From the IMG/VR virus record IMGVR_UViG_3300022861_000082, positions 1 through 42,938 of that record: 42,938 nucleotides of DNA; one strand, 5' to 3'. The notes beneath the pieces are model-generated. The model saw only the letters and a list, made by a program, of their open reading frames with translations. It was not told where the DNA came from and made no database searches. Below are positions 24,628-42,149 of the stretch, in pieces. Origin of the DNA: a virus. How positions within the stretch are numbered: the first letter of the stretch is position 1; every line of letters starts with the position of its first letter. The position numbers were made by a program, and so were the translations under genes.

Positions 24628-24823
24628 CAGTGGGATAGTCGCAGTCCCAGTGGCGCGGCCTCGGATCGTCCAGCCACGCTTTAGCCGACCATCGGTGATG
24701 CTTGAGAATCGGCTTTCCGCAACGTGCGCAGATTCGGCGTGCTGGCTTCGGTGCCTCGGGCTGGCCGCGCATGACGAGATACAGCCCGAGGCAGATCGTC
24801 CGAATTCGTTTCAGTAACTTCAT
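24338..24823 (-). CDS. Small zinc-finger protein with a long overlapping tail
   Basis: ATG 24823 overlaps the methyltransferase stop (ATGA), which supports this start. Residues 1-62 carry a hydrophobic/basic start (MKLLKRIRTICLGLYLVM) and a probable zinc finger, ICARCGKPILKHHRWSAKAW ... HWDCDYP. From about residue 66 the frame becomes acidic, Ser-rich and low complexity and lies over the start of the HNH gene for 290 bases. Either the true gene is short and its tail unimportant, or the two genes overprint. Function unknown. Confidence 0.55.
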   Translation of the reverse strand: MKLLKRIRTICLGLYLVMRGQPEAPKPARRICARCGKPILKHHRWSAKAWLDDPRPRHWDCDYPTGEGHGKNTEVVEVIRGIEEIPTASAPETLETLCEADSSQASEAEGAEDSNSPSWSGDAESSPGGLGEGRETVRCVPEAVASGWRPVPPNAPGTYPE

Positions 24824-26967
24824 AGTTCTTCCACCATCTGAATCCTCTCTCCTATCCAGTGCATGACAGGCCTCGCCATTGAATTTCCAATGGCCTTGTA
24901 TCGCGGCCCGTCTGCCGTTTTGTCGCTGATCTTCGTGTAGTCATCAGGGAAACCCTGCAATCGTTCGCACTCTCGCGGTGTGAGGCGGCGAACAGCCATG
25001 CCTTCTGCTATCGGACTAATCTTCATTCCCCCCGCTGGATTAGCAGACAGCGTTTCGCATTGACCTTCTATGCTCTGAATTCTGTATCCCTGAGGAATTC
25101 CCGTCTTGAATGCCACCGCTGGTACCTGATTTGTCCCGCTGGAAGCACCGCGCAGAGTTGGCGACTGTTCTGGCTGGTAGGCGATACTTCCCGCCTGTGG
25201 TGATTGTCCAGCGGAGAAACCATAAGCCACGCTCCCCTCAAAGCCCCCGCCTGTCTCGCGTGATTTCAGGCATCCCATTAATTCATCGTTGGCGTTCTGC
25301 TCTTCGTCAATTCCGTAACACACGGTCGGAGCACCCGCACCCCCACCATCGCTATTCAGGACCGGCGGAGATACCTCCGATGGCGTGAACCCATCCTGTC
25401 CCGACGCACGGAATGCTACGGCCATCCAGTTTCCAGAGTTCGCGTGACTCTTGTCGAAGCCACCGGCGCGGAGAGTCGGGCTAATCTCTTCCGACGCATC
25501 GGCACCGTGATCCTTCGCGGAGAAGGCGATTACGTTCGTGCTCGGATCTGTGGCAGTGGTGAGAGGAGCCGTGCAGTCCCCCTCTTCATACACGGCCCCA
25601 TCTCCCGCGGTGCGATACGCGATTACCGTTCCACCTTGGCCAGCAGTGAATCCCCCCGTATCAATGGCCCTAGATACTTCCGTTTCAAAAGCAGCTTCGC
25701 TTAGGCCCTTTCCGCGCATGGCACACGAGTTCGCCGAATGAATATTGAAAGCGATCGCATCAGCGTCCAGGGTTGGGATGAGCAGTGATTCCCGACTAGC
25801 TGTATCCCCATACGGGTTCTGAGTTAACGCGCAAGCGACGATGTTCATGCCTCTATCTGCGCAGGGACTAGAATCGTGACGCGATGTAAGTGAACCTGCG
25901 ATGTCTCCGAATTGCGTGATGGGTGAGTCAAAGGAACCCCCGGTCACCACTAGGTCCTGACACTCGTCTCCGCTCGGGCCCCCTGTTCCTTTGGCCCATT
26001 TGCTCGTCACTGCTCCGCACGGGGATGACGTATCCAGATAACGCTGACTGCGTATCGACTCCTCCATGAGATTGGTGCGACATTGTTCCGACGATCCGCC
26101 CCCCCCCGCAACCGAATTGCCATCCACGGCCAACATTCCTAATTGATTGCGGATTGCTCCGTCTTTGCAGCGGGTATCGAGCGTGCAGGATGTTTCGGTG
26201 AACTCACCGCCTGAAGGGCCAACCGCAACGCCACGGGCAACTCTTTGCCTCGCTTCTCTGCGCGGCGGAGGATACCCCGACAGGCTGTGGCGCTCAAAAA
26301 GTACCGCAGCGGGACGTTCCCAACTTCCAAGATGTCCGACAACGAAGACGCGACGGCGCCGCTGTGGTACTCCAGCGTATTGAGCGTCCAGAATCCGATA
26401 GCTCCACCCATAGCCGAGTTCTGACAGCCCTTCGAGGAAGACGCTAAGATCGTTGGTTTGCACAACTTCCTCAAAGTCGCCATCGCCTGAATCTGGGCTT
26501 CCGAAGCCGATGTCCAATCCGAGGAGTTCTCCAGCTCGTCGAGCCTCTGCGATAAGCTGCTCGTTTTGCGCATTCTCCAGACGCGCTGCGTCATCGGTCC
26601 ACGAGGATTGGACTCCGGGGACGTTCTCCCAAACCACCCAACGGGGCCTGAGGCGTTGAGCCAGTTTAAGAAATTCGAGCGAGAGATTCCCGCGTTCCCC
26701 GTCAAGTCCTGCTCGGAGTCCTGCGACTGAGAAATCTTGGCAAGGTGTTCCTCCGACCAGAAGGTCGATTGCGGTTGCGTCTGTTGCTTCAATCTTGGTG
26801 AAGTCGCCAAGGTTTGGAACCTCCGGATAATGATGTTTCAGTACCGCCGATGGAAATTTCTCTATCTCCGCAAAGAACACTGGCTTCCACCCGAGCGGCT
26901 TCCACGCGACCGTGGCCGCTTCGATGCCCGAGCAAACTGAACCGTAACGAATCACTGCTCTACCCAT
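24820..26967 (-). CDS. C5-cytosine DNA methyltransferase with very long target-recognition region
   Basis: A protein of 715 residues. Motif I region YGSVCSGIEAATVAW, motif II FFAEIEKFP, catalytic GGTPCQDFS with Cys76, VWENVPGV (114-118), QRRRRVFVVG near residue 205, and C-terminal RRLTPRECERLQGFPDDYT ... IGNSMARPV. All C5-MTase landmarks are present. Between residues about 225 and 640 there is an unusually long segment of degenerate repeats (AIAF/VAF and SPTL/APT motifs), about 400 residues, where the family usually has 100-200. It should methylate cytosine in phage DNA against host restriction. Located late in the left early operon. Confidence 0.88.
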   Translation of the reverse strand: MGRAVIRYGSVCSGIEAATVAWKPLGWKPVFFAEIEKFPSAVLKHHYPEVPNLGDFTKIEATDATAIDLLVGGTPCQDFSVAGLRAGLDGERGNLSLEFLKLAQRLRPRWVVWENVPGVQSSWTDDAARLENAQNEQLIAEARRAGELLGLDIGFGSPDSGDGDFEEVVQTNDLSVFLEGLSELGYGWSYRILDAQYAGVPQRRRRVFVVGHLGSWERPAAVLFERHSLSGYPPPRREARQRVARGVAVGPSGGEFTETSCTLDTRCKDGAIRNQLGMLAVDGNSVAGGGGSSEQCRTNLMEESIRSQRYLDTSSPCGAVTSKWAKGTGGPSGDECQDLVVTGGSFDSPITQFGDIAGSLTSRHDSSPCADRGMNIVACALTQNPYGDTASRESLLIPTLDADAIAFNIHSANSCAMRGKGLSEAAFETEVSRAIDTGGFTAGQGGTVIAYRTAGDGAVYEEGDCTAPLTTATDPSTNVIAFSAKDHGADASEEISPTLRAGGFDKSHANSGNWMAVAFRASGQDGFTPSEVSPPVLNSDGGGAGAPTVCYGIDEEQNANDELMGCLKSRETGGGFEGSVAYGFSAGQSPQAGSIAYQPEQSPTLRGASSGTNQVPAVAFKTGIPQGYRIQSIEGQCETLSANPAGGMKISPIAEGMAVRRLTPRECERLQGFPDDYTKISDKTADGPRYKAIGNSMARPVMHWIGERIQMVEEL

Positions 26968-30418: not shown

Positions 30419-30656
30419 TTTTCAGTACCTCGCTTTCAATCACCCACTTCGTTTCGCCGTACGGCAGTTTCAGCCCAACCATCGGAGCCAGCCGGCTGAA
30501 CTGGTGACGCGTCGGCTTACCGCATTTCGAGCAGTTCAGAAAGGGTTCAACCGTCACATCGTCCGGGAGACCGAACCCGAACTGGCGCACCGTTTGGCAT
30601 CTGGTGCAGACGAACATCGACCCCATACCGCGCTGTTTTACTTCCACGTTCTTCAC
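30411..30656 (-). CDS. Small zinc-ribbon protein
   Basis: A protein of 81 residues with FVCTRCQTVRQFGFGLPDD and LNCSKCGKPTRHQF, a two-knuckle zinc ribbon, then APMVGLKLPYGETKWVIE. It overlaps both neighbours by four and eight bases. Such proteins between replication and resolvase genes are common and uncharacterised. Confidence 0.68.
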   Translation of the reverse strand: MKNVEVKQRGMGSMFVCTRCQTVRQFGFGLPDDVTVEPFLNCSKCGKPTRHQFSRLAPMVGLKLPYGETKWVIESEVLKNA

Positions 30657-31249
30657 TGATCCTCCTGAACTGTGCTGCTAATTGGTTCAACACTGGGCAG
30701 CGTCTTGGACGCGCCAGTAAGCCTCTTCACCATGTCCTGCACAACCGGAGCAAGTGCCAATCTCGTTGCCGCGCGGCCTGTCCGGTCATAGTTCGCAATA
30801 GCCTGCGCAAATTCCTTTTTCACCCATGGGTACTGCTCGTCGGTCATTTCCTTCAGACGACTCCACCCACCCACGATGCGAACCGCGTGTTCGATTGCCT
30901 CGGGAATCTCCGGGACAGGGATCCGCTTGCAATGCGGTTTCCCGTCAGTCCACTCAATCCGCCCGAGGCCCTCGACAATCCCGTAACCTTCAGGGCCCTT
31001 GCGCTCTACGTGGCGTTCCATGAATTTCTGAACGAACTCCCACGAAGCCAAGGACTCTGCATCGCCGCCGATTCCAGCCATCTCGCGTAACTCGGCCGGA
31101 ACTGGCAGAAACCTGCACGTGCACTCCGCCTGCTCGAAAATCTTGGCGAGCGTAGCTGGCTCGATGTCCTCCAGGACATCGGCGTAAATTCCTTGAATCC
31201 CTTCGTCAACCGTCGCCTTAGTGATACCCGCCAGACGCGTTACGGCCAT
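30653..31249 (-). CDS. Replicative helicase loader-like protein
   Basis: From ATG 31249 198 residues: MAVTRLAGITKATVDEGIQG, IYADVLEDIEPATLAKIFEQ, AECTCRFLPVPAELREMAG resemble G40P-loader / DnaI-inhibitor proteins, whose signature is a short helical bundle ending in F.P...ELR. A stronger ribosome site (GGGGGAG) precedes ATG 31375, which would add 42 residues but overlap the initiator by 158 bases; I could not decide. It follows the replication initiator, the usual partner order. It would load the host helicase at the phage origin. Confidence 0.68.
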   Translation of the reverse strand: MAVTRLAGITKATVDEGIQGIYADVLEDIEPATLAKIFEQAECTCRFLPVPAELREMAGIGGDAESLASWEFVQKFMERHVERKGPEGYGIVEGLGRIEWTDGKPHCKRIPVPEIPEAIEHAVRIVGGWSRLKEMTDEQYPWVKKEFAQAIANYDRTGRAATRLALAPVVQDMVKRLTGASKTLPSVEPISSTVQEDQ

Positions 31250-32171
31250 GATGATCGCTACCCGCTTGAGAATTGGCGAGTTCGCGCTGAATAGCACGCT
31301 GGGCCGCGGATAAGTTATGCTCTGTTCTTGCCTGTCCTGCCCCCGCTGCTGCCGACGCTGCAACTCGAATCCCATTTGCTCCCCCTGCTGTTGCTTTGTG
31401 TTGACCATCTGTGAACCAGAACCGATTGATCTTTTCGCCGTTTTCGATTGCCAACTTCGCCCGTGCCAGCACTTCCACTGAAACCGTTGCCACCGGCATC
31501 TTTCTCTCTCTCGCGTAAAGCCTCAGGTTCTCTGCGCAAGCTTCGTTGGACATACGATCTGGCATCACAAAGAGCTGAGACCAAAACCAATCGGAGCACT
31601 GCAGTTCGTTCCAATCATCCGGAGGAACCTCACAATCGAAGTTCTTCCGGGTAGCGCAGATCTTGGGAACAGGGGGTTTTTGCGTACTCTCTTCCTGTTC
31701 CGGTTCCTGCTCCTGCTCCGGTTCCTGATTAGGGGAGGTCTTCGGAAAGGCTTCCGTAAAGGCTTCCCTAAAGCCTTTGGTTAAGCCTTCCGCAAAGCCT
31801 TTAGCGCGTTGAAAAACAAGGTGCTTATACTCACACTCGGGTAGCAAGTCGTAAGCTTCTGGCCAAGATTTGACCACGTTCGGAGACTCTGGTCGGTTGT
31901 ACTTGAGGAAGTTTGGGAGCCATATGAAACAGGCTTCCTGATCATGCTTTACGAGACCCTTCGACAAGGCTTCCGCAAAGGCTTCCCGAAAGCCTTCCGC
32001 TGGAATTTGAAGTTCATCGGCGAGTCCACTCAGCGACCCTCTCATCGCTCCGAGCATTGTCATATTTGGGTGCGTCAGCAAAAAAAGGAACACTAGCTTT
32101 CCGCGCTCGCTCAGAGAGCGGAACTTAGCGTCATTCCAAATTCGAGTTTCAATCTTCCGGTACTTACTCAT
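31218..32171 (-). CDS. Phage replication initiator / replisome organiser
   Basis: A protein of 317 residues. N-terminus MSKYRKIETRIWNDAKFRSL, LVFLFLLTHPNMTMLGAMRG, CFIWLPNFLKYNRPESPNVV is a well-known winged-helix initiator start in phages. Residues 58-70 and 123-144 contain repeated GFREAF-E-A motifs encoded by iteron-like DNA. Residues 148-162 are a Glu/Gln/Pro linker. The C-terminal half (WFWSQLFVMPDRMSNEACAE, RLYARERKMP) is partly DnaT-like. It probably binds the origin within its own gene and recruits the loader encoded next. Confidence 0.82.
   Translation of the reverse strand: MSKYRKIETRIWNDAKFRSLSERGKLVFLFLLTHPNMTMLGAMRGSLSGLADELQIPAEGFREAFAEALSKGLVKHDQEACFIWLPNFLKYNRPESPNVVKSWPEAYDLLPECEYKHLVFQRAKGFAEGLTKGFREAFTEAFPKTSPNQEPEQEQEPEQEESTQKPPVPKICATRKNFDCEVPPDDWNELQCSDWFWSQLFVMPDRMSNEACAENLRLYARERKMPVATVSVEVLARAKLAIENGEKINRFWFTDGQHKATAGGANGIRVAASAAAGAGQARTEHNLSAAQRAIQRELANSQAGSDHHGRNASGGYH
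31745..31999. repeat. Eight 12-bp iteron-like repeats, candidate replication origin
   Basis: Five copies lie at exact 12-bp steps (cores AAGGCTT or AAGCCTT at 31747, 31759, 31771, 31783, 31795), and three more at the same step (31966, 31978, 31990). Consensus about NAAAGSCTTYCG. The first three units of each cluster (two AAGGCTTCC then one inverted AAGCCTT) are the same series, so the group is duplicated 220 bp apart. They lie in the initiator gene, as lambda iterons lie in O. They also encode the repeated GFREAF peptide, so protein-level repetition is a rival explanation. Confidence 0.7.
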
Positions 32172-32614: not shown

Positions 32615-32845
32615 CTATCTCCCTTCCCCTGCTTCCACTACGTTGACTGCCGCTGGACCGCGCGACGTGGCTACTACGTCAAACCTCACCCGCTGGTCCT
32701 TAGCGAGGCTCTTGGACTCACTCAGGAGCCCGGTGCGATGCACATACACGTCCTCTGCATCGAACCCGTCAGGCTGAATGAATCCATACCCCCGGGCGGC
32801 GTCAAAGAACGACACCGTCCCGGTCTGTTTTGCTGCTGCTGTCAT
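32615..32845 (-). CDS. Cold-shock domain protein
   Basis: A protein of 76 residues. GTVSFFDAARGYGFIQPDGF with RNP1 (GYGFI) and DVYVHRTGLL with RNP2 (VYVH) define a cold-shock OB fold that binds single-stranded RNA/DNA; the rest (RVRFDVVATSRGPAAVNV) completes the barrel. The family is usually 65-75 residues. It overlaps the YqaJ gene by four bases and lies among recombination genes, so it may cover ssDNA or unfold mRNA. Confidence 0.85.
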   Translation of the reverse strand: MTAAAKQTGTVSFFDAARGYGFIQPDGFDAEDVYVHRTGLLSESKSLAKDQRVRFDVVATSRGPAAVNVVEAGEGR

Positions 32846-38977: not shown

Positions 38978-39474
38978 ATCCGAAGGACGTTATCGAAGCA
39001 ATTGCCAACGCCGACTCGCAGGCCCTGTCGATCTATTCGTCCTTTGACCCGGCAAAAGCCACAGGCCCCGCGCTGGACAAGCTTAAGGGCGTGAGCACGG
39101 ACGCTCACCCAATCTACTGCCGCCTAGGTTTCAATGTGGACGAAGTGAAGGCGCAGCTTGACGAACTAGCTGAGCTGGTTTGGTCACGGTTTCCGGAAGA
39201 GGTCCCGGATGACCTGTTCAACGATATTTTGAGACTCGCGTCTGACATCGTCCTCACGAGTTTCACTACCGCAACCGGGGCAGATGGCACGGAGTACGCC
39301 TGCCAGAGCATCAAGCTCGGAAGTAGCTTTGATGATTTTCTGGCCGCATTTCGGGCAGACAAAGTAATCGGGCATGATGGGCAACTTTCAGTGACACAGG
39401 ATTCCAGATTAGAGTCTAGTGCCCAAAATTCAGAGCTGCAACAAGTTCCAACCAGTGAGGGGCAGGAGTCATGA
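38974..39474 (+). CDS. Hypothetical protein after the Cro-like gene
   Basis: GTG 38974 overlaps the Cro-like stop (GTGA); its own stop overlaps the next ATG (ATGA). 166 residues: MNPKDVIEAIANADSQALSI, AKATGPALDKLKGVSTDAHP, GFNVDEVKAQLDELAELVW. Helical at first, low complexity at the end. An opposite-strand frame with a zinc ribbon lies inside (39184-39384). The operon overlaps support translation of this one. Function unknown. Confidence 0.65.
   Translation: MNPKDVIEAIANADSQALSIYSSFDPAKATGPALDKLKGVSTDAHPIYCRLGFNVDEVKAQLDELAELVWSRFPEEVPDDLFNDILRLASDIVLTSFTTATGADGTEYACQSIKLGSSFDDFLAAFRADKVIGHDGQLSVTQDSRLESSAQNSELQQVPTSEGQES
39184..39384 (-). CDS. Antisense zinc-ribbon frame (possible nested gene)
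   Basis: A 66-residue frame on the minus strand: MPIMPDYFVCPKCGQKIIKA, LDALAGVLRAICPGCGSETR, then RESQNIVEQVIRDLFRKP. CPKCG and CPGCG spaced as in known phage zinc ribbons make chance unlikely, yet it lies wholly inside the plus-strand gene 38974-39474. No promoter seen for it. It may be a relic or an antisense gene. Confidence 0.35.
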   Translation of the reverse strand: MPIMPDYFVCPKCGQKIIKATSELDALAGVLRAICPGCGSETREDDVRRESQNIVEQVIRDLFRKP

Positions 39475-42149
39475 GTTCCGCTCGTCTCGCTGCCTATCAG
39501 GATTTTCTAAGAGCTAAGTTCCAGTTTTCCAAGGGGTGCGGCTTTGACGTTTCCCCCAGCGAGATTCATCCGCTGTTGAAGCCGCACCAGCGTGACATCG
39601 TGCAATGGGCCGTGCATCGTGGCCGCGCTGCAATCTTCGCCTCCTTTGGACTCGGCAAGAGCCTCATTCAGCTTGAGATTATGCGGCTGATTGCAGAGAA
39701 GTCGGGCGGTCGGTCACTGATCATCGCTCCCCTTGGCGTTCGTCAGGAGTTCAAACGCGACGCGGAAATGATCGGGATTCGCATTTGCTTCATTCGCCGC
39801 ATGGAAGATTGCGCGCAATCGGACCTATTCGACGATCCGCGCCCGGTGATCTTCCTGACGAACTACGAGACGGTGCGTGATGGCAAGCTGGACCCGAACG
39901 AGTTCGCCGGCTGTTCTCTGGATGAGGCCGCGTGCTTGCGAGGCTTCGGAGGTACGAAGACTTTCCGCGAGTTCATGCGCCTGTTTGAGAACAACGGGAA
40001 ATACAAGTTCGTAGCCACGGCCACACCATCGCCGAACGATTACATTGAGCTGCTCGCCTACTCCGCATTCCTGGACGTGATGGATGTCGGGCAAGCAAAG
40101 ACGCGCTTCTTTAAGCGGGATTCCACGAAGGCCGATTGCCTCACGATCCATCCGCACAAGGTCAGAGAGTTCTACCTCTGGCTGAGCACCTTTGCCGTGT
40201 TCGTTCAGAAACCCTCGGACCTCGGATACAGCGACGAAGGCTACGAGCTTCCGGCGATGGAAGTTCATTGGCATGAAATCCCCAGTGATCACAGCGATGC
40301 TGGCTGGGAGAGCTACGGCCAAGGAAAGCTCCTGAAGAATTCCGCGCTCTGCCTTCCGGATGCCGCGCGTGAAAAGCGTGACAGCCTGGATGCTCGGATA
40401 GAGAAGCTTATCGAGCTTCGCAAGATCGATCCCGAGGCCCACCGGATTATCTGGCACGACCTGGAGGACGAGCGGCTGGCGATTGAGAAGGCCGTGCCGT
40501 CAGTCGTGACGATCTATGGCGCGCAACGATCTACTCCGAAAGGCCAGCAGGAGCTTGAAGAATCTCTGATTGCTTTCTGCGATGGCCAGATTCAGGAGAT
40601 GGGCGGCAAGCCGTCGATGCTCGGCAGTGGAACGAACATGCAGCGGCATTGCTCATGGGCGATCTATCTCGGCATCGGCTTCAAGTTCAACGACTTTGCC
40701 CAGAGTCTCCACCGCCTTTATCGCTATCTGCAAACCAAGACCGTGCGCGTCGACTTGATCTACACGGAAGCGGAACGCGAGATTCGCCGCGTGCTGGAAG
40801 AGAAATGGGAACGGCACAAGGAACTGACGGCCCAGATGTCGCAGATCATCCGCGAGTACGGGCTGGGCAGCGGAGCGATTGAAAACGAGTTGAAGCGATC
40901 GCTTGGATGCGAGCGCGTGGAAGTGAAGGGCGAGAACCACACGCTGGTCAATAACGATGCCGTGCTGGAGACCATGCAGATGCCAGATAACTGTGTGGAT
41001 CTGATTCTCACCTCGATTCCGTTTTCGATGCAGTACGAGTACTCGCCTTCATATAACGACTTCGGCCACTCCGAATCGAACGAACACTTCTGGCAACAGA
41101 TGGACTTCCTGAGTCCTGAACTGCTGCGCATCCTTCAACCTGGTCGCATTGCGGCCATCCACGTAAAGGACCGGATCGTGCCCGGAGGAATGACCGGCCT
41201 TGGATTCCAGACGGCCTATCCATTTCACTGCGACGCCATCCGGCACTACGAAAAGCATGGCTTCGCCTATCTCGGCATGAAGACCGTGGTTACCGATGTG
41301 GTGCGCGAAAACAATCAGACGTACCGCCTCGGCTGGACTGAGCAGTGCAAGGACGGTTCACGCATGGGCGTGGGAATGCCCGAGTACTTGCTGCTGTTCC
41401 GCAAGCCGCCGTCTGATTGCAGCAACGGATATGCCGATGTGCCCGTGGGTAAAGAGAAGGCCAAGTACTCTCGTTCACGCTGGCAGATTGACGCCCACGG
41501 ATTCGAACGCTCCAGCGGCAATCGCCTGTTAGCAACCGAGGAACTACGGGCGATGCGTCATTCCGACATCTTCAAGGCTTTCCGCGAACACTCGCTCACC
41601 AACGTCTATGACCTGGAGGAGCACGTTCGCATCAGCGAGTCGCTGGAACTGTGCGGCTTCTGCAATCACATCCACCTTGGCACTAAAGACGACGATGAAG
41701 GCAAAGTTTGCGGCCAGATTGTGGATGGGGAACCGTGCTTCTGCCACGTCTACAAAAGCCTGTTGCCCACAACGTTCATGCTTCTCCAGCCGCAAAGCTG
41801 GCACCCCGACGTGTGGACAGACATCACGCGGATGCTGACCCTGAACGGTGCGCAGAGCGCCAAGGGGAAAGAGATGCATCTCTGCCCGATGCAATTTGAC
41901 TTAGCCGACCGCGTGATCACTCAGATGAGCATGGAAGGCGAGACGGTATTCGATCCATTTTCCGGCCTCGGTACCGTCGCATACCGGGCACTCAAACTGA
42001 AACGCAAGGGCTACGGCGTCGAACTGAGCCCGCGGTACTTTGCCGACTCCATTGCTTATTGCCACTCCGAAGAACAGGCGCTGAACGTCCCGACCTTGTT
42101 CGACTTACACGCTCCCGATCACGAACCAGAAGGAAGGTTGCCCGCATGA
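39471..42149 (+). CDS. Fused SNF2-type helicase and N4/N6 DNA methyltransferase
   Basis: A protein of 892 residues. Helicase part (1-460): Walker A FASFGLGKS (Lys63), DEAA at 151-154, TATPSP at 183-188, and motif VI QSLHRLYRYLQ (411-421). Methyltransferase part (490-870): motif IV TSIPFSMQYEYSP at 514-526, with Ile in place of the second Pro, and motif I FDPFSGLGT near 827-835, i.e. order IV before I (beta class). A Cys-rich insert (CGFCNHIHLG, VCGQIVDGEPCFCH, 728-760) probably binds zinc. ATG overlaps the preceding stop. It may modify phage DNA with ATP-driven tracking, a protection or remodelling role. Confidence 0.83.
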   Translation: MSSARLAAYQDFLRAKFQFSKGCGFDVSPSEIHPLLKPHQRDIVQWAVHRGRAAIFASFGLGKSLIQLEIMRLIAEKSGGRSLIIAPLGVRQEFKRDAEMIGIRICFIRRMEDCAQSDLFDDPRPVIFLTNYETVRDGKLDPNEFAGCSLDEAACLRGFGGTKTFREFMRLFENNGKYKFVATATPSPNDYIELLAYSAFLDVMDVGQAKTRFFKRDSTKADCLTIHPHKVREFYLWLSTFAVFVQKPSDLGYSDEGYELPAMEVHWHEIPSDHSDAGWESYGQGKLLKNSALCLPDAAREKRDSLDARIEKLIELRKIDPEAHRIIWHDLEDERLAIEKAVPSVVTIYGAQRSTPKGQQELEESLIAFCDGQIQEMGGKPSMLGSGTNMQRHCSWAIYLGIGFKFNDFAQSLHRLYRYLQTKTVRVDLIYTEAEREIRRVLEEKWERHKELTAQMSQIIREYGLGSGAIENELKRSLGCERVEVKGENHTLVNNDAVLETMQMPDNCVDLILTSIPFSMQYEYSPSYNDFGHSESNEHFWQQMDFLSPELLRILQPGRIAAIHVKDRIVPGGMTGLGFQTAYPFHCDAIRHYEKHGFAYLGMKTVVTDVVRENNQTYRLGWTEQCKDGSRMGVGMPEYLLLFRKPPSDCSNGYADVPVGKEKAKYSRSRWQIDAHGFERSSGNRLLATEELRAMRHSDIFKAFREHSLTNVYDLEEHVRISESLELCGFCNHIHLGTKDDDEGKVCGQIVDGEPCFCHVYKSLLPTTFMLLQPQSWHPDVWTDITRMLTLNGAQSAKGKEMHLCPMQFDLADRVITQMSMEGETVFDPFSGLGTVAYRALKLKRKGYGVELSPRYFADSIAYCHSEEQALNVPTLFDLHAPDHEPEGRLPA

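Follow-up and report, generated by a model that had tools for sequence, protein, structure and literature searches.

The window analysed here, 42,938 bp in length, corresponds to a complete IMG/VR record, and its annotation, which includes tail sheath, baseplate, portal, and terminase genes, is that of a contractile-tailed phage. The gene P0001, located on the minus strand at positions 31,218-32,171, is predicted from PHROG profiles and AlphaFold2 to encode a replication initiator of 317 amino acids with a winged-helix N-terminal domain (NTD), an iteron-encoded linker, and a poorly modelled C-terminal part. Genes for a repressor, RecE-like and Erf-like recombination proteins, and a RusA-like resolvase are present in the same half of the window, and the second gene upstream of the initiator encodes a cold-shock-domain protein (32,615-32,845, minus strand). 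Elsewhere, a C5 cytosine methyltransferase gene (24,820-26,967, minus strand) was recognised by a match to PHROG 116, in which 282 profile positions are spread over 705 residues. The product thus carries a large insertion, for which the Pfam search found no intein domain. The sole large plus-strand gene (39,471-42,149) encodes a protein of 892 amino acids that matches a DNA-helicase PHROG along its length and has an N6/N4 DNA methylase domain at residues 509-858.

Judged by its N-terminal profile match, the initiator appears to belong with the DnaD-like phage initiators and helicase loaders (residues 1-167; PHROG 25711, E-value 5e-32; PHROG 1701, "DnaD-like helicase loader", E-value 8e-20). 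The protein matched no Pfam family, neither a RepA_N domain nor phage replication protein O (lambda O) was detected in Pfam or NCBIfam, and no meaningful homologue emerged when PDB sequences were searched with profiles. AlphaFold2 modelled residues 11-140 as a winged helix with a pLDDT of about 97, the elements being a1 (22-32), a2 (47-54), a3 (58-70), and the wing (75-84). In the fold search with the full model, the RepA entries 4pt7 and 4pql came out on top with weak E-values of 0.02 and 0.03, while with the NTD model 4pt7 was only 23rd, among generic winged helices; the RepA matches were weak overall (E-values 0.02 to 0.07). Relatives were collected by protein similarity using search peptides taken outside the repeats. 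A single-protein query of viral contigs found none, but a three-sequence alignment query did.

Other replication genes adjoin the initiator gene. Its 3′ end is overlapped by about 190 nt (assuming the first ATG) by a gene for a DUF6475/PHROG 10105 protein (30,653-31,408, minus strand), which was identified by a profile match. In three relatives (loci L092, L094, and L164) the gene directly after the initiator gene codes for the DnaB replicative helicase; in two others (L090 and L024), as in the window, this place is taken by a gene for a DUF6475/PHROG 10105 protein. Because of this position, held in relatives by the same family or by the DnaB helicase, the DUF6475 protein is a candidate that may serve as helicase loader.

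Inside the initiator gene, eight AAGGCTT/AAGCCTT cores (AAGSCTT) are arranged in two clusters with steps of exactly 12 bp within each, just as the original prediction had described. Cluster A (31,964-31,999, minus strand) has three units, with words at 31,966, 31,978, and 31,990, and cluster B (31,745-31,804, minus strand) has five, with words at 31,747, 31,759, 31,771, 31,783, and 31,795. The codons of cluster A correspond to residues 58-69, coinciding with a3, the predicted recognition helix, and those of cluster B to residues 124-143. The two clusters had been said to have a series of units in common, and a stretch of 38 nt does recur in both, with 89% identity. On the other hand, the flips of orientation described within each cluster are not real. 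Reverse complementation turns AAGGCTT into AAGCCTT, the central G/C being the sole difference, so that flips appear merely because the word is an odd near-palindrome with G or C as its middle base. All eight units are in the same codon phase on the coding (minus) strand, xAA GSC TTN, and the central base of each decides between a Gly (GGC) and an Ala (GCC) codon.

The word is clearly overrepresented. AAGSCTT occurs 16 times in the window against 4.85 expected, a number reached in none of 100 shuffles. To the initiator gene we applied codon redraws, in which the peptide was kept and the codons were drawn from the phage's own codon usage; the mean was 0.82 words and the maximum in 20,000 draws was six, compared with the eight observed. 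The aligned copies display a seven-base core, which is fixed by the search itself, and variable spacers. The centre of the cluster B word is a free C/G in every codon phase, and as it thus varies in all three codon positions, it fits a DNA site and not a peptide.

Repetitive-looking DNA could also result if an amphipathic helix of the form (GFxEAFx)n were under selection. Cluster A indeed lies in a conserved helix where the peptide is conserved, its words are nearly always in codon phase 1 (276/288), and a part-role of the peptide is possible there. According to the original prediction, a protein-driven signal would be revealed by relatives that keep the GFREAF peptide with synonymous codons that spoil the repeat. 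The opposite was found, as the relatives keep the DNA word by means of almost fixed synonymous codons. Among 37 protein-selected relatives, in which all synonyms occur in the remainder of each gene, the codon GAA was used in 97% of cases in the repeats and 50% in the rest of the gene, AAA in 91% and 43%, and GCC in 92% and 34%, respectively. In 48 non-redundant protein-selected genes, the linkers contained 409 lag-12 6-mer matches against 4.8 expected, with an excess in 42 of the genes, although part of this excess does not come from the iterons because the hexamer tract described below contributes to lags 6, 12, 18, and 24.

Searches that ignore the reading frame gave a similar picture. Three AAGSCTT words at 12-bp steps were found at no fewer than 119 loci in viral contigs, and among the matches listed 85 of 119 arrays were inside genes of the initiator family, in phase 0 or 1. 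With AACSGTT there were 80 loci, 43 of which were inside the family and covered all three phases. In contrast, the scrambled control word AGASTCT, of the same composition, gave 28 loci with none in the family and 25 in a single phase, and therefore behaves as protein-driven repeats should. The peptides encoded by the arrays are entirely different (EAFREAF, KPSGKPS, SLTESLS, ETVPQTV, NGSGNGS, and ERLRERF), and phase 1 in cluster A goes together with phase 0 in cluster B in many genes. A tree of the winged-helix domains from which the cluster A columns had been removed required at least 21 changes of phase and 7 to 9 of the word, the tree being poorly resolved. The alignment of relatives proposed in the original prediction thus revealed that the repeats persist when the peptide varies, with the word retained through changes of both frame and peptide. 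That the repeats would arise from selection on the helix peptide is highly improbable, given that the redraws never reached eight words, the synonymous codons are fixed, and the same DNA word turns up in different phases, where it spells unrelated peptides (for example KPSGKPS, SLTESLS, ETVPQTV, and NGSGNGS).

At L225, L230, L242, and L248 the AACSGTT arrays are outside profile-recognised genes, yet they encode linker-like peptides (NGSGNGS, PKPLPKPL), and in L225 and L248 the array is followed by a QDRE/QEQE-type tract; these are probably truncated or more distant members of the initiator family. A family member of an Exiguobacterium phage (L004, 2501-3499) carries another word, TATCGATA, twice with 12-bp spacing at the same linker position, which suggests that there are more word types in phages of Firmicutes. 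L028 and L031 are two initiator genes of the family located about 20 kb apart on the same 53-kb contig (IMGVR_UViG_2890915291_000011).

Clusters A and B carried the same word in all 128 genes that have both (100/100 genes with AAGSCTT in cluster B, where one further gene ties, and 28/28 with AACSGTT), and in 103/103 after removal of near-copies. This agreement is partly due to kinship, because a kinship-corrected test counted only two independent word changes on well-supported branches, both of them concordant and too few for a p-value. Slippage can create tandem arrays, and the iteron copy number varies among the relatives, as would be seen with neutral, functionless duplication. Such an origin of the arrays is hardly credible at all, since the seven core bases are kept while the spacer bases vary, arrays are still present in initiators whose NTDs are 25-70% identical, and the word is common to two clusters separated by about 170 bp.

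A peptide-only explanation was rejected on the basis of the codon redraws, the codon bias, the phase distribution, and the scrambled control word. Selection acts at the DNA level on both the word and its 12-bp spacing. As the codons are fixed, the frame-blind matches fall in the same family, and the two clusters agree in their word, we regard the repeats, from sequence comparison, as DNA iterons and not a peptide repeat. The iteron reading of the original prediction is strongly supported by the codon redraws, the fixed codons, the frame changes, and the fact that both clusters change their word together.

The recognition helix a3 of the initiator, with whose codons cluster A coincides, may itself read the iteron word. 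Between the initiators of L187 and L284, the winged-helix domain is 80% identical, but the former has AAGSCTT and the latter AACSGTT, each in both clusters. Six of the 24 differences between them are within the 13 recognition-helix residues (p 0.02), an enrichment with some circularity, since the recognition helix is itself encoded by cluster A. The sites could instead be read by another protein of the host or the phage, as a winged-helix fold alone gives no specificity. However, the word differs between these two close initiators, with the partly circular helix difference, and there is no DnaA box in the window, so we consider another reader distinctly unlikely and favour the initiator encoded there.

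The iterons were located correctly at 31,745-31,999 in the original prediction, but the feature extends further, to a CAGGAR-type purine-rich hexamer repeat at 31,692-31,727 (minus strand; QEPEQEQEPEQE on the coding strand). The order along the coding strand is thus cluster A, cluster B, and the repeat tract, which begins just 3′ of cluster B and is of the CAGGAR type in most genes. Its period among the relatives is 6 in 59 genes, 7 in three (L118, L174, and L185), and 5 in one (L193, EQNRT). The tracts of period 7 (QGAGSREQGAGSRE) and period 5 rotate through all frames, and the tract is also read in other frames as TGTG, RNRN, and GAGAG. Because it occurs in several reading frames, the tract is probably selected at the DNA level, and its tandem structure and presence in relatives make it a candidate opening or loading region.

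After the last iteron, TnnT occurs on average 11.1 times per 60 nt on the non-coding strand, compared with 1.2 on the coding strand and 2.2 in a control stretch. 5′-TnnT-3′ is the single-strand motif read by Bacillus subtilis DnaD at oriC (PMC10201434), where the DnaA-trio/DnaD Recognition Element places it on one strand beside the double-strand sites of the initiator. The resemblance is a lead only, because TnnT is a weak motif that largely survives codon shuffling of the tracts (10.2 per 60 nt). Some observations speak against an origin. Near the clusters there is no conspicuous AT-rich unwinding element, the minimum GC content in 60 bp being 0.43 between the clusters; the purine-rich repeat is found instead. 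The window also lacks a DnaA box. The GC skew has no turning point at the clusters, and it is confounded by gene direction.

Several studied replicons have a comparable layout. The closest in plan is the pSK41-type Rep (RepA_N), in which boxes at the centre of the rep gene are bound by an N-terminal winged helix, and the middle segment of the protein, encoded by the ori, is a linker; both the NTD and the CTD of this Rep resemble DnaD (PMC5703833). The Rep boxes are four in number with inverted repeats of 8 bp in pSK41 or 9 bp in pTZ2162 (PMC7145576), whereas here the units are 12 bp long with a 7-bp odd near-palindrome, and the initiator has no Pfam match and a weak fold match to RepA (E-values 0.02 to 0.07). 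In lambda, the iterons are in the middle of the O initiator gene and the helicase-loader gene is downstream (PMC7466680), as the candidate loader gene is here. Ori-lambda, however, has four longer iterons beside an AT-rich tract and not 12-bp units in two clusters with a purine-rich repeat. The initiators Rep2009 of Tuc2009 and ORF13 of TP901-1 bind direct repeats in their own genes that act as ori, and phage-encoded resistance, in which a cloned fragment lowers the growth of the cognate phage, is reported for both (PMC8965321). In Tuc2009, the middle of the gene additionally contains short repeats rich in purines. The strongest repeat lag in these two phages is 15 instead of 12. Both were tried as members of the present family and rejected (a single-sequence search gave E-values of 0.01-0.03 with scores close to zero). 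The SPP1 origin-binding protein gp38 likewise has direct repeats (oriL) in its own gene and works with a loader and a DnaB-type helicase (PMC6316719). SPP1, which is likened here by description, differs by its AT-rich DUE and by another origin, which is located outside the gene.

The sites could also be an operator, bound by the initiator or a repressor to regulate transcription of the initiator gene. They are within that gene, and initiators often regulate their own genes. We consider this unlikely, as the sites are 170-430 bp inside the gene and not at the promoter, and in the studied look-alikes sites of this kind serve as origins. We favour the view, at a probability of roughly 85%, that the repeats are iterons, i.e., DNA binding sites in the initiator's own coding sequence, which together with the purine-rich repeat form the replication origin of the phage. 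The origin role is likely on account of the family-wide evidence and the experimentally studied cases of the same layout.

By analogy with lambda O, SPP1, TP901-1/Tuc2009, and pSK41, the winged helix of the initiator would bind each 12-bp unit via the near-palindromic AAGSCTT, and several copies of the protein would occupy both clusters to form a nucleoprotein array. The adjoining repeat tract would then be opened or kept single-stranded, and the replicative helicase would be brought in by the C-terminal part acting together with either the loader-like protein encoded downstream or a DnaB helicase.

The general plan of an origin inside the initiator gene is known. What is new is the unit of 12 bp with its odd near-palindrome, a second cluster within the codons for the recognition helix, the fact that word swaps are coordinated, and a repeat tract independent of the reading frame. 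In the literature covered by PMC, no description of the 12-bp iteron family was found. Tentatively, this may be a large, unstudied initiator family with a self-addressed origin. The helix codons would contain the word that the helix reads, so that the target and its reader are tied in one DNA stretch. The address (AAGSCTT, AACSGTT, or others) would be swapped as a unit in both clusters, and the 5-7 bp tract would be a strand-specific, DnaD-type loading site. The finding provides a testable origin for a widespread, uncharacterised family of phage initiators, and the 12-bp DNA pattern finds such origins directly. The same bases serve two functions, and from the frame switches one can see how an array of binding sites is reconciled with a protein. 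The natural word swaps between near-identical initiators such as those of L187 and L284 could be used directly as specificity switches when replicon compatibility is studied.
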